A stretch of 64,000 nt of DNA from Halobacteriovorax sp. GTDB lineage: Bacteria > Bdellovibrionota > Bacteriovoracia > Bacteriovoracales > Bacteriovoracaceae. Under the pieces are notes generated by a model. That model was not told where the DNA came from and ran no database searches. It saw only the letters and a list, made by a program, of their open reading frames with translations. Position numbers and translations under genes: made by a program. The number at the start of each line of letters is the position of its first letter. Within the stretch, counting starts at the first letter, position 1. Where the stretch lies: contig JAIFLR010000049.1 in assembly GCA_020048985.1 (NCBI GenBank), forward strand, positions 1 to 64,000, read 5' to 3'. This document shows, in pieces, positions 597 to 55,035 of the stretch.

Positions 597-641
597 GAAC
601 TATCCCTAGGAATATTTTAAAAAGACAGTAAGATTTAAGCT

Positions 642-4305: not shown

Positions 4306-6108
4306 ATGGATACAAGTCTCATCCGAAATTTTTCAATTATCGCCCACATTGATCACGGTAAATCGACCTTAGCGGATCGAATTATAGAGATGTGTAAAGC
4401 CGTTACCGATCGTGAAAAGTCTGATCGAATGTTGGATAACATGGATCTTGAAAAAGAGCGTGGGATCACCATTAAGGCCCAAACAGTTCGCCTGGCCTAT
4501 AAAGCGAAAGATGGAATCACCTATTATTTCAATTTAATCGATACTCCGGGACACGTAGATTTTACCTACGAGGTTTCCCGTTCTCTTGCTTCTTGTGAAG
4601 GGGCTCTTTTAATTGTTGATGCTTCTCAAGGAATCGAAGCACAGACTTTGGCCAACGTATATATGGCCTTGGAAAACAATCTTGAGATTCTGCCAGTGAT
4701 CAACAAAATTGATCTTCCGCACGCAGATCCAGAAAAAGTTAAAAAAGATATTGAAGATGTTATTGGCATTGATGCCTCAGAGGCTCCGCTGGTTTCAGGG
4801 AAATCTGGTCTCGGTGTAGATATTTTGCTCGAAGAAATCGTAAAAAAAATTCCACCACCAAAAGGTCAGGTGGATTCACCACTTCAAGCCCTCATTTTTG
4901 ATTCGTGGTTTGATCCGTACAGAGGTGTTGTGGTTCTGGCGCGTATTATGGAAGGCACGCTTAAAGTGAAGGATAAAATTCACTTTAAGTTTAGAGGATC
5001 TGATTACGAAGTTTTAAAGCTTGCCGTCAACCAGCCCTTTTATCTGGAAGTTCCACAATTGGCCGCTGGAGAAGTGGGCATGATTGTTTGTGGAATTAAA
5101 ACGGTTCGTGACGTTAAAGTCGGGGACACAATTGTTCACACAGATAAAAAAGACACCACTCCTACGCTTGCTGGTTATAAAGAAATTAAGCCTATGGTTT
5201 TCTGCGGGATTTTTCCGGTGGATTCCGAAGAATATGAAGTTTTAAAAGAGGCTCTAGAAAAATTGGCCCTTAACGATTCATCTTTTACTTATGAGCCAGA
5301 AGTTTCTCAAGCTCTTGGTTTTGGATTTCGTTGTGGATTTTTAGGTCTTCTTCATATGGATATTATTCAAACTCGTCTCGAAAGAGAGTTTGATCTTGCT
5401 CTGATCTCAACGGCTCCCTCGTGTAATTATGAAATTCATACCACGACTGGTGACGTCTACATGATCGATAACCCGGCAAAATTACCTGACCCTACTCAGA
5501 TTGAAATGATCAAAGAGCCAACAGTTAAGCTTTCTATTCATTTACCAAATGATTACGTCGGTAAAATCATTAAACTATGTGAAGACCGCCGTGGGCGCGA
5601 TCAGAATATTAATTATATTACTGAAGACCGCGTTCAACTTACTTATGTTCTTCCGCTTTCTGAGATGATGTTTGATTTTTACGACCAATTGAAATCTCTA
5701 TCTAAAGGTTATGCCTCAATGGATTACGAGCTTCATGAGTACATGGAATCTGACATGGTTAAGCTTGATGTATTGATTAACGGAGATAAGGTTGATGCCC
5801 TGTCTATGATCACCCATCGTAGCAACGCTCAACAACGAGGCAAAGATCTAACGTTCAGACTGATGAAGGTGATTGACCGCCAACAATTTGATATCGCCAT
5901 CCAGGCCGCCATCGGGTCTAAGATCATTGCCCGTGAATCGATTAAGGCCCTTCGTAAAAACGTACTTGCGAAGTGTTATGGAGGTGACGTTTCCCGTAAA
6001 CGTAAGCTCTTAGAAAAGCAAAAAGAAGGGAAAAAGCGGATGAAAATGGTCGGGAATGTTGAAATTCCTCAAGAAGCCTTCTTGGCAGTTCTTAAAACTG
6101 AAGAGTAG
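4306..6108 (+). CDS. lepA: Elongation factor 4 (LepA GTPase)
   Basis: This is an about 600-residue translational GTPase that acts on the ribosome, where EF4 is thought to back-translocate or remodel stalled or initiating complexes. Visible motifs are the P-loop AHIDHGKS near residue 15, the switch region [19 protein letters not shown], and the LepA-specific C-terminal domain ending in [17 protein letters not shown] prefer ATG 4306 ([12 protein letters not shown], the usual LepA beginning). The in-frame ATG at 4267 would put a perfect hairpin inside the coding region. Neither start has a clear Shine-Dalgarno sequence. Confidence 0.96.
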
Positions 6109-6111
6109 AAT
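6082..6111 (+). promoter_or_regulatory. Candidate sigma-70 promoter for leaderless 6117 gene
   Basis: TTGGCA (6082-6087), an 18-nt spacer and TAGAAT (6106-6111) lie inside the lepA 3' end. The next ATG is only 5 nt after the -10 box, so a transcript would begin at or within a few bases of the start codon. Confidence 0.45.
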
Positions 6112-6116
6112 ACCCT

Positions 6117-6737
6117 ATGCTCGAAATCGTTCATGAACACCTAGATAAAGTTTTAAGCCTCTATACGGAGGGCTCTCATTTCGATGACTTAAAATCAGCG
6201 AAGGAGAACTATTTCTCCATCACTGGTAAACTCGACGAAGATAAAGAAGAGTTTGAGTCTCGCATGAATTGTTTTAATGACTGGTACATCTTCCAGCATC
6301 GTAATAAGGATGGATCAAAAGTTATTGAAGATTACATTCGTAGCAGTCAGTTGGATGTTGAATTATCTCAAGCTCTTTTGAATGTGAATCACTCACTTTT
6401 TGAGTTTTCTAAAATCAATTTCAGAAAACAAATTGTTCTTCACGATATTCTTCATGATGAAAAAATTGTTCTTGTGAAAAATCATCCAACTATTTCATTG
6501 ATGGAAGGGGATGTGTTTACAGGAAGAGTTATTAAGTTCAAGGGCGCTCACTATCTTCTTCGTGGGGTTTGTATTCTGCCTCAAGGCGTAAAATCCATTC
6601 TGAAAAAACAGTCCAAGAAAGTCCGAAAGCTCAATAGCTTTGAAGAAGAGTTAAAATTTCTCCTTCAACTTGAAAGTCTTAAAACCAAAGCAACTCACTA
6701 CGGTCACATCGATCCAGCAAAAATCTTCATCTTTTAA
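6117..6737 (+). CDS. Conserved-looking hypothetical protein, soluble, 206 residues
   Basis: I do not recognise a family. The protein is charged, soluble and without a signal peptide. The N-terminal half is helical. The C-terminal part (about residues 110-165) reads like a small beta domain, with FTGRVIKFKGAHYLLRGVCILP, and is followed by a lysine-rich stretch (KKQSKKVRK). It starts 8 nt after lepA. No Shine-Dalgarno sequence is obvious. A promoter-like TTGGCA/TAGAAT pair ends 5 nt before ATG. The stop lies 3 nt from the stop of the convergent gene. Confidence 0.7.
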   Translation: MLEIVHEHLDKVLSLYTEGSHFDDLKSAKENYFSITGKLDEDKEEFESRMNCFNDWYIFQHRNKDGSKVIEDYIRSSQLDVELSQALLNVNHSLFEFSKINFRKQIVLHDILHDEKIVLVKNHPTISLMEGDVFTGRVIKFKGAHYLLRGVCILPQGVKSILKKQSKKVRKLNSFEEELKFLLQLESLKTKATHYGHIDPAKIFIF

Positions 6738-7697: not shown

Positions 7698-7706
7698 GCT
7701 GTGCAG

Positions 7707-7735
7707 ATCTTATAACTTGTACCTAAATTGGTAAA
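7707..7735 (-). promoter_or_regulatory. Candidate promoter of the flippase-like gene
   Basis: On the minus strand TTTACC (7735-7730) and TAAGAT (7712-7707) are separated by 17 nt. The ATG follows 9 nt after the -10 box, and no ribosome site is visible between them. Confidence 0.4.
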
Positions 7736-10416: not shown

Positions 10417-11180
10417 TTATTCATAAGGTTCCCTACAAAGAGCGGGATCTGATCGTTAAACTCCTCATGCGAAATGGGATGATGGGTAGTTTCTATATTT
10501 ATGGTGGTCAGGGCGGTGGTAAACACCATAAGCCAACTATTTTTGAAATCGGCTCAATGGTAAAAATTCAAATCAGAGAGCAAAGGGCCGGCAAGATCGA
10601 AGGCAATGAGTTAATGATGGCGAGTGAAAGCCAAAGACTCTGGGAACCAGAACTCATTCGCCACAATATCCAAGCTTTCTACCTCGTGTGTTTATATCTC
10701 GAAATTTTACAAAAGTTTTCCATGAATTTTCAGGTCAACACTAGTGACTATGACAATATGGAGCATGAAGGAATTTTTTCGGTTATTAGTAATGCTCTTT
10801 TTCATATGAATGATTCTTTGAAAAAAGAAGAATTCGTCGCTCACCAACATTTAACTTTATATATGGTGAAGCTCTTATTTCACTTGGGGATTATGCCGGA
10901 GACTGATAACTGCTCTTATTGTGGAACAGGTCTAATGGAATCTCTGGGGGTGACTTTCCAGCCAGAGAACGGGCAGTTCTCTTGCACTCAATGCGTAAAC
11001 GCTGAAAATGAAAAAGGCTTTTTACTACGGATCAAAAAGAGTTACCAAACAAAGTATCAGGATTATCTGGAGCTCACTGGAACTAATTTCCAGGAAGCTG
11101 ATAAACTTATTCAGTTCTTCTGCCATCATTTCCAGCTCAGGCCAGTGGAGCTTAAGTCTTATGGATTACTTTTAAGGTGA
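10398..11180 (+). CDS. recO: DNA repair protein RecO
   Basis: The 260-residue protein has the RecO layout. An N-terminal OB fold (MVFEGVVIHKVPYKERDLIVKLL, residues 1-80) is followed by a helical domain and a C4 zinc module (CSYCGTG about residue 173, CTQC about 200). RecO anneals DNA and loads RecA with RecR in the RecFOR pathway. The start at 10398 matches the family and overlaps the helicase end. An upstream in-frame ATG (10314) would add 28 residues of unrelated sequence. The 3' end overlaps the convergent phosphatase gene by 22 nt. Confidence 0.88.
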   Translation: MVFEGVVIHKVPYKERDLIVKLLMRNGMMGSFYIYGGQGGGKHHKPTIFEIGSMVKIQIREQRAGKIEGNELMMASESQRLWEPELIRHNIQAFYLVCLYLEILQKFSMNFQVNTSDYDNMEHEGIFSVISNALFHMNDSLKKEEFVAHQHLTLYMVKLLFHLGIMPETDNCSYCGTGLMESLGVTFQPENGQFSCTQCVNAENEKGFLLRIKKSYQTKYQDYLELTGTNFQEADKLIQFFCHHFQLRPVELKSYGLLLR

Positions 11181-11677
11181 TTGGCAAAATCGAGTAGGGT
11201 TTTATAATAAGGAAATTCTGACTTTTGCTCGTGCCTGACCAGAATCCCGGCAATCCCTGCACTTTTTCCCGACTCGGGATCGATCAGTTTATCCCCAACC
11301 ATGTAGGCGTGTTTTGGATCAATGTGGTATTTGGTCATTAATTCTTGGATCATTTGGCCCGAAGGTTTGCGGCAATGGCAGTTCTCATCGGGTGAGTGAG
11401 GACAAATGGCAAAATCTTTAAAAGGTTGAAGTTTGTTTTCTCGCAGATCATTTTGCAGCTGGCGGTGGATAACATAAACTGATTCGAGAGAAAAATAACC
11501 GCGACCTACACCGGATTGGTTAGTAACCACAAAAAGTTCATATCCTAGATTTTGAAAAAGCTGCAAAGCTTTCATGGTATCTGAGAAATATTCAATATCC
11601 TCTACTCGCGAAAGATAGTTCTTATCCTGGATCAAAGTCCCATCGCGGTCGAGGAAGATGGCCTTCCGTGTTTTAAT
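11159..11677 (-). CDS. HAD-IIIA phosphatase, GmhB/HisB-N-like, apparent ATT start
   Basis: Read from ATT at 11677-11675, the protein has 172 residues and starts MKTRKAIFLDRDGTLI. This contains the HAD nucleophile and acid/base pair D10 and D12. It continues with VTNQSGVGRG (motif II), a zinc-loop CPHSPDENCHCRKP and VGDKLID (motif IV). These mark the heptose-bisphosphate/histidinol-phosphate phosphatase group. The first ATG/GTG/TTG-type codon (TTG 11635) would remove the catalytic aspartates, and an in-frame stop lies just upstream. A GGAGG site sits 8 nt before ATT. A GmhB role in LPS heptose synthesis is plausible but unproven. Confidence 0.8.
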   Translation of the reverse strand: MKTRKAIFLDRDGTLIQDKNYLSRVEDIEYFSDTMKALQLFQNLGYELFVVTNQSGVGRGYFSLESVYVIHRQLQNDLRENKLQPFKDFAICPHSPDENCHCRKPSGQMIQELMTKYHIDPKHAYMVGDKLIDPESGKSAGIAGILVRHEQKSEFPYYKTLLDFANHLKSNP

Positions 11678-11705
11678 TTACTTAGCCTCCGTTAAAGCTT
11701 AAGAT
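11677..11705 (+). promoter_or_regulatory. Candidate leaderless promoter of msbA
   Basis: TTTACT (11677-11682), a 17-nt spacer and TAAGAT (11700-11705) end 6 nt before ATG 11712. No Shine-Dalgarno sequence is present. The -35 box touches the start of the divergent HAD gene. Confidence 0.5.
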
Positions 11706-18500: not shown

Positions 18501-18529
18501 TTGAGTTTTATAGGCATCTCATTTAAGCT
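18501..18529 (+). promoter_or_regulatory. Weak candidate promoter of the serine hydrolase gene
   Basis: TTGAGT (18501-18506) and TAAGCT (18524-18529) are 17 nt apart. ATG follows 6 nt after the -10 box, and no ribosome site is present. The -10 match is poor. Confidence 0.25.
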
Positions 18530-25188: not shown

Positions 25189-25220
25189 AAAAAAAGCCCT
25201 CTTCGGAGGGCTTTTTTTTT
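25189..25220 (+). terminator. Intrinsic terminator after metK
   Basis: AGCCCTC and GAGGGCT enclose a UUCG tetraloop. They are flanked by an A-run and followed by nine T, so it can work in both directions. Confidence 0.95.
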
Positions 25221-25242: not shown

Positions 25243-25248
25243 TAGAAT
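25243..25248 (+). promoter_or_regulatory. -10 box of a leaderless small gene
   Basis: TAGAAT ends 6 nt before ATG 25255. The metK terminator ends at 25220, so a promoter must lie in these 34 nt. No Shine-Dalgarno sequence fits. Confidence 0.45.
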
Positions 25249-25254
25249 AATTCA

Positions 25255-25485
25255 ATGACCGAAATCTTTTTCCTCGCCAGACATATTCCCTTTTGGGCCA
25301 CAGCCTTAATTGTTCTTGGGGGAGAGTTCGGTTATCTTTTCTGGCTCAAAAAGAAGAAAAAAACGGCTACCTTGTGCTTAATGATTGTCGTTATTGGCCT
25401 AGCCGCTAACGTCTTTTATATCTGGGCCGGTGGGCCAGAGAAATCTGTGAAAATTATCAAAAAGATGCACCGCGACCATAAGTAA
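25255..25485 (+). CDS. Small two-helix membrane protein
   Basis: The 76-residue protein has two hydrophobic helices (about residues 10-30 and 40-57) separated by a lysine cluster (KKKKKT), which suggests both termini on the same side of the inner membrane, probably outside. I recognise no family. It is isolated between the metK terminator and a regulator gene and has its own putative leaderless promoter. Confidence 0.65.
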   Translation: MTEIFFLARHIPFWATALIVLGGEFGYLFWLKKKKKTATLCLMIVVIGLAANVFYIWAGGPEKSVKIIKKMHRDHK

Positions 25486-42607: not shown

Positions 42608-42613
42608 ATTTTA
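42608..42613 (-). promoter_or_regulatory. -10 box of the leaderless protease-like gene
   Basis: TAAAAT on the minus strand ends 7 nt before ATG 42600. No convincing -35 box is present at 17 nt. Confidence 0.4.
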
Positions 42614-46988: not shown

Positions 46989-46994
46989 TAAAAT
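46989..46994 (+). promoter_or_regulatory. -10 box of the leaderless 47001 gene
   Basis: TAAAAT ends 6 nt before ATG. The flgE terminator lies 50 nt upstream, so a separate promoter is needed. No ribosome site is visible. Confidence 0.45.
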
Positions 46995-47928: not shown

Positions 47929-47934
47929 ATTTTA
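47929..47934 (-). promoter_or_regulatory. -10 box of the leaderless 47922 gene
   Basis: On the minus strand TAAAAT is followed by CACTCT and ATG. No ribosome site is present. Confidence 0.45.
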
Positions 47935-55014: not shown

Positions 55015-55035
55015 ATAGTATGATAGTCATACTAT
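55015..55035. promoter_or_regulatory. MarR-type operator touching its own start codon
   Basis: ATAGTATGA and TCATACTAT form a perfect 9-3-9 palindrome ending immediately before ATG 55036. It contains a TATGAT -10 box (55019-55024). There is no room for a ribosome site, so the transcript is likely leaderless or nearly so. Confidence 0.7.

Follow-up and report, generated by a model that had tools for sequence, protein, structure and literature searches.

Candidate leaderless genes with a -10 box at a fixed distance from the start codon in a Bdellovibrionota lineage

The locus behind metK

The 64,000-nucleotide (nt) stretch of Halobacteriovorax sp. DNA analysed here, referred to as the window (assembly GCA_020048985.1, contig JAIFLR010000049.1, positions 1 to 64,000), contains metK with its intrinsic terminator and, directly behind it, an open reading frame (ORF) starting at 25255 for a predicted membrane protein (Table 1). 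An earlier note on this DNA had proposed that the hexamer TAGAAT just before the ATG at 25255 is the -10 element of a promoter whose transcript begins at the start codon, and that several other genes of the window share this layout, with a TANNNT box in place of a Shine-Dalgarno (SD) site. All twelve upstream sequences that it quoted match the window, except that TATTTA, correctly read before 19565, lies outside the TANNNT pattern; the metK terminator ends 36 nt before the ATG at 25255, rather than the 34 nt given there.

The source assembly comprises 3.25 Mb at 42% G+C and 91.6% completeness. In a MetK tree, the window protein pairs with the MetK of a Bdellovibrio record with a Shimodaira-Hasegawa-like approximate likelihood ratio test (SH-aLRT) support of 98. 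The genome of that record has pattern counts identical to those of G220, a member of the same phylum but of another family (f6). The source genome thus belongs to the Bdellovibrionota, in a family (f1) different from that of Bdellovibrio itself.

We consider ORF 25255 a real gene on its conservation pattern, being present in 25 of the 26 genomes of the genus, with 53–75% identity in relatives; the encoded protein matched no Pfam or NCBIfam family. We define the gap as the number of nucleotides between the end of TANNNT and the ATG, such that gap 6 places the box at -12 to -7. TANNNT occurs at gap 5–7 in 17 of 25 orthologs, positioned between the ATG and a terminator that differs among genomes, compared to 0–3 occurrences at other positions, and the box is thus conserved while the remaining intergenic DNA diverges.

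A -10 box at a fixed distance from start codons

To place this gene in a genomic context, we called genes with a dicodon model on 650 kb of the source genome, picking starts blind to upstream signals, which yielded 539 usable starts. SD words peak 5–8 nt upstream of these starts, about 40% of the genes have a weak SD or none, and the anti-SD is intact at the 3' end of the 16S ribosomal RNA (...GGATCACCTCCTTT; L081, reverse strand). Across the 539 genes, TANNNT occurs 26 times at gap 6, compared to around 12 times per position farther upstream and around five in the adjacent positions. This peak is confined to genes lacking an SD, where 19/223 carry the box at gap 6 against a shuffled mean of 5.1 (maximum 12 in 200 dinucleotide shuffles), whereas genes with an SD remain near expectation (7/316, shuffled mean 5.6; p 0.001 for the difference). 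A second genome of the same genus (G240, 420 kb sampled) showed the same behaviour, with 14/136 SD-less genes carrying the gap-6 box against 4.4 in shuffles, gap 7 being raised too, and 2/194 SD genes against 3.5 (p 0.0001). The enrichment in SD-less over SD-led genes that the earlier note had asked for against shuffled controls is therefore present; its range of 5–9 nt, however, was too wide, as enrichment is limited to gaps 5–7, chiefly 6, and is marginal at most at gaps 8–9.

A strict version of the box (TANRAT-like, with TA(A/G)(A/G)AT as the favoured form) precedes 2.8% of gene starts at gap 6 compared to 0.12% of 9,001 internal ATGs, which show no peak. The excess over background at gaps 5–7 amounts to about 3% of genes in the source genome and about 6% in G240; a strict-box share of roughly 3–6% would therefore correspond to on the order of 100–200 leaderless genes. 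All but two of approximately 47 candidates start with ATG, which adds little weight since 90% of the whole set does so. When genes close behind a same-strand gene were excluded, the gap-6 count was 17/173 SD-less genes, compared to 3–5 at most other positions, with a slight rise at gap 11 (10/173). Divergent SD-less genes alone formed the strongest subset (13/78).

Promoter features and phylogenetic spread

Comparison of 58 candidate boxes with 589 control TANNNT words located 12–39 nt from starts revealed additional promoter-like features. TTG or TTAA words resembling a -35 element stand exactly at -23 from the box, equivalent to a 17-bp spacer, in 19% of candidates compared to 5.8% of controls; the extended -10 motif TGn accompanies 22% compared to 5.9%; and the best TTGACA match scores 3.28 compared to 2.70. 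Boxes also favour divergent or first genes (18/78 versus 9/129 SD-less genes, Fisher p 0.001). On contigs C1 and C10 (L082; L091, L106, L107), several divergent gene pairs lie 51–78 bp apart with both genes leaderless-looking, and the two promoters would therefore overlap.

Throughout whole genomes, we counted TANRATN6ATG against the frame-matched control TANRATN12ATG, with totals covering part of the phylum table. The source genome has 302 against 211 occurrences, and its genus 5488 against 3931 (ratio 1.40, above 1 in 18/18 genomes). Ratios were 1.26 in genus g6, 1.19 in 28 further genomes of the source family, 1.38 in g57 and 1.24 in genus g79, from the family of Bdellovibrio (4010 against 3235, above 1 in 21/21). 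No excess was detected in 31 genomes that, with the exception of L055, belong to other phyla (6467 against 6589, ratio 0.98). Within the Bdellovibrionota the excess is therefore widespread, and it is highest near the genome of the window.

Candidate genes in the window and their orthologs

Conservation was followed gene by gene using syntenic and protein-searched orthologs, instead of the reciprocal best hits with G240, which gave only 28 pairs with agreeing starts, too few to be informative. At 642, 6117, 11712, 18536 and 25255, a box stands at gap 5–8 in at least half of the genomes, and we regard these five as firm predictions of leaderless genes, with a caveat for 6117. In that gene, TAGAAT occurs in 10/10 orthologs at gap 5 or 7, a pattern partly confounded by the stop codon it contains, although the post-stop AAT is included in the conservation, which still favours a box. 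For 11712, TANNNT lies at gap 5–6 in 12/12 orthologs (11 after the SD filter), and for 18536 at gap 6 in 7/10 (7/14 after the SD filter). SD-led neighbours (metK, 20873, 25605, 33723 and others) have retained their SD in nearly every genome, and the box is almost never seen there, in agreement with the earlier proposal that two start modes coexist. Gene 47001, with a positive coding score where the overlapping minus-strand ORF scores negative, is likely leaderless as well.

Table 1 Features of the window discussed in the text
Feature	Position	Strand	Observation
metK intrinsic terminator	25189..25218	+	hairpin and T run, folding z -3.25
-10 box TAGAAT, gap 6 to ATG 25255	25243..25248	+	conserved position in genus orthologs
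Predicted 76-aa membrane protein gene, leaderless candidate	25255..25485	+	genus conservation
-10 box TAAGAT, gap 7, before TrkH-family gene 642	629..634	+	TAARAT at gap 6–7 in 7/7 orthologs
TAGAAT, gap 5, before 6117	6106..6111	+	TAG doubles as stop codon of upstream gene
TAAGAT inside GTTATAAGATC, gap 9, before 7697 (LPG_synthase_TM family)	7707..7712	-	ortholog conservation
-10 box TAAGAT, gap 6, before MsbA-like ABC transporter 11712	11700..11705	+	ortholog conservation
-10 box TAAGCT, gap 6, before 18536 (Beta-lactamase Pfam domain)	18524..18529	+	ortholog conservation
TAAAAT, gap 7, before 42600	42608..42613	-	box in 1 of just 2 orthologs
TAAAAT, gap 6, before 47001 (111 aa, signal-peptide-like start)	46989..46994	+	TAAAAT at gap 6–7 in 2/3 orthologs
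TAAAAT, gap 6, before 47922	47929..47934	-	box read in window sequence; no ortholog available
Palindrome ATAGTATGATAGTCATACTAT abutting ATG of MarR-family gene 55036	55015..55035	+	holds TATGAT 55019–55024, gap 11

Two further genes on the earlier list appear near-leaderless. Upstream of 7697, 10/10 orthologs have TTATAAGATC at gap 9, either identical or with a single change, and the leader is probably only about 2–4 nt long. The element GTTATAAGATC (7700–7720, minus strand) is nearly invariant at a fixed distance before this gene in ten genomes and is longer than a plain -10, possibly representing a special promoter. The palindrome ATAGTATGATAGTCATACTAT (55015–55035), which includes the likely -10 of the MarR-family gene 55036, was found in 9/9 orthologs, with both arms intact in eight; here too, the leader is probably a few nucleotides long, and the arrangement resembles a near-leaderless promoter carrying the operator of an autorepressor. 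Two genes were dropped from the list: 9502, whose orthologs have varying starts and no shared box, and 19565, whose TATTTA departs from the pattern and whose sole ortholog lacks a box. Gene 2374 (TAGGAT, gap 6, 7/7 orthologs) was not counted, the box lying within the last codons of the upstream gene with AGGA at SD distance.

A separate observation concerns a gene for a GmhB-like HAD phosphatase (11159–11677, minus strand, start codon at 11677), which has an apparent AUU start. The codons ATT AAA ACA CGG come immediately after an in-frame TAA, with GGAGG 8 nt upstream, and the reading frame reaches its first ATG, GTG or TTG only past the catalytic DRDGT motif. The ATT start is shared by 11 orthologs in the genus and one in a sister genus (G016), while in G213 this codon reads ATG, and more distant relatives carry an ATG close to this position. 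AUU starts are known mainly from infC and pcnB.

Discussion

Directly documented in these upstream regions are the box with its fixed spacing, the absence of an SD, the -35 or extended -10 partner, the gene context and the conservation. With a -10 ending 6 nt before the A of the ATG, the usual transcription start falls on that A; since the box is fixed at this distance, the expected start is therefore the A of the ATG. We consider it very probable that a minority of genes undergoes leaderless sigma70 transcription, alongside SD-led initiation in the same genome, as the restriction to SD-less genes, the partner elements, the preference for promoter-first genes and the ortholog conservation all support. 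In this model, sigma70-type promoters whose -10 (TANNNT) ends 5–7 nt before the ATG would produce RNAs whose 5' end coincides with the A of the AUG or lies no more than about 2 nt from it. Such SD-less messages would presumably be started by ribosomes recognising the 5'-terminal AUG, probably as 70S particles or as 30S subunits preloaded with formylmethionyl-tRNA (fMet-tRNA), and the remaining genes would follow the normal SD route.

Several observations weigh against this interpretation, some of them at 25255 itself. Its box has no good -35, a promoter scan yielded no consensus pair, and the partner elements thus characterise the class and not this gene. The ortholog in G091 has merely a degenerate box, TAATAC; two others (L143, L144) carry an SD and no box; and in three (L134, L138, L142) the T run of the terminator abuts the ATG. 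In these last three genomes AGGA stands immediately 5' of the metK hairpin and there is no space for a promoter, perhaps reflecting read-through with a hairpin-bridged SD. For the class as a whole, the starts come from a home-made caller using coding signal only on a sample of about 20% of the genome, and overlaps with upstream stop codons or weak SD-like words affect a few candidates.

Given that gene-upstream DNA is 62% A+T and that so many genes have a weak SD or none, a non-SD route through A/T-rich leaders is conceivable, in which transcripts arise from promoters farther away and TANNNT near the ATG acts as a translation enhancer or reflects composition. We judge this very improbable, because the signal is specifically T-A-N-N-N-T in a peak one base sharp that rises above dinucleotide shuffles, its boxes have -35 or extended -10 partners at promoter spacing, and at 25255 no space exists for a second promoter between the metK terminator and the gene. 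Even less credible is the idea that the boxes are simply the TAA or TAG stops of upstream genes in tight operons, starting by translational coupling and not from promoters. Stop or C-terminal codons do fall within the box at 6117, at 2374 and at a few other genes genome-wide; yet the peak survives removal of close same-strand followers (17/173) and is found at divergent genes (13/78), which refutes a stop-codon origin for the class and confines it to single cases such as 2374, where it may apply.

Closer to our interpretation is the suggestion that at least part of the class has very short leaders of 2–6 nt, with a 5'-proximal AUG at variable spacing. The gap-9 box in 10/10 orthologs of 7697, the gap-11 box in 9/9 of 55036 and the slight rise at gap 11 in SD-less genes speak for such leaders, whereas most of the enrichment lies at gaps 6–7, predicting leaders of 0–1 nt; we therefore regard them as possible, if rather unlikely. 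Leaderless transcription remains our preferred explanation for the gap 5–7 boxes. A more speculative extension is that single orthologous genes pass back and forth between leaderless and SD-led initiation; of the 25255 orthologs, 17 carry a -10 at the fixed position and two have an SD but no box. Leaderless initiation might then be a gene-specific choice that is maintained across the whole predatory phylum, perhaps in connection with stages of the life cycle in which ribosomes or the ratios of initiation factors are altered, a scenario that we find doubtful at present.

A survey of 953 bacterial genomes reported TANNNT-led leaderless genes for 207 of them; of its 33 delta-proteobacterial genomes, 8 had such genes, at a mean of 15.8% (Zheng et al. 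2011, PMC3160421). According to a figure quoted in the StartLink paper, leaderless transcription is predicted for 21.6% of bacterial species (PMC9581028). The main text of Zheng et al. 2011 (PMC3160421) does not mention Bdellovibrio by name, and by titles and abstracts, none of the papers combining 'leaderless' and 'Bdellovibrio' concerned leaderless genes of this lineage. The earlier note's remark that it knew of no description in this lineage thus holds for explicit descriptions in the papers searched, but not for the wider group, as the delta-proteobacteria of that survey were a class then including Bdellovibrio. As in that work (PMC3160421), the -10 signal clusters about 10 bp from the start codon; our case differs in concerning a Bdellovibrionota family outside Bdellovibrio's own, in its lower strict-count share (3–6%) and in the gene-by-gene tracing of conservation across one genus. 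Mycobacterium (Shell et al. 2015, PMC4633059) and Deinococcus likewise combine two initiation modes with a -10 just before the start codon. In those organisms, however, both 5' ends and translation have been measured, and leaderless genes make up a share of about 20–40% (estimates of PMC3160421), whereas here the share is smaller, in a genome of 42% G+C, and the evidence is that of sequence. In the same phylum, primary 5' ends were mapped for attack-phase promoters of B. bacteriovorus (Karunker et al. 2013, PMC3627812); these are FliA (sigma28) promoters of the form TTAAG-N16-CCGATA, and neither the length of leaders nor leaderless mRNAs are taken up in the passages of that paper examined.

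What we describe is therefore a known type of gene start, now documented at the sequence level in a little-studied lineage. It provides a testable list of predicted leaderless genes in a predatory phylum, among them those for an MsbA-like transporter and a TrkH-family protein. It also bears on start-codon calls and assumptions about 5' untranslated regions in Bdellovibrionota, which depend on SD models. Finally, orthologs that appear to have exchanged a -10 box for an SD, or the reverse, would expose, base by base, an evolutionary route between the two modes of initiation.
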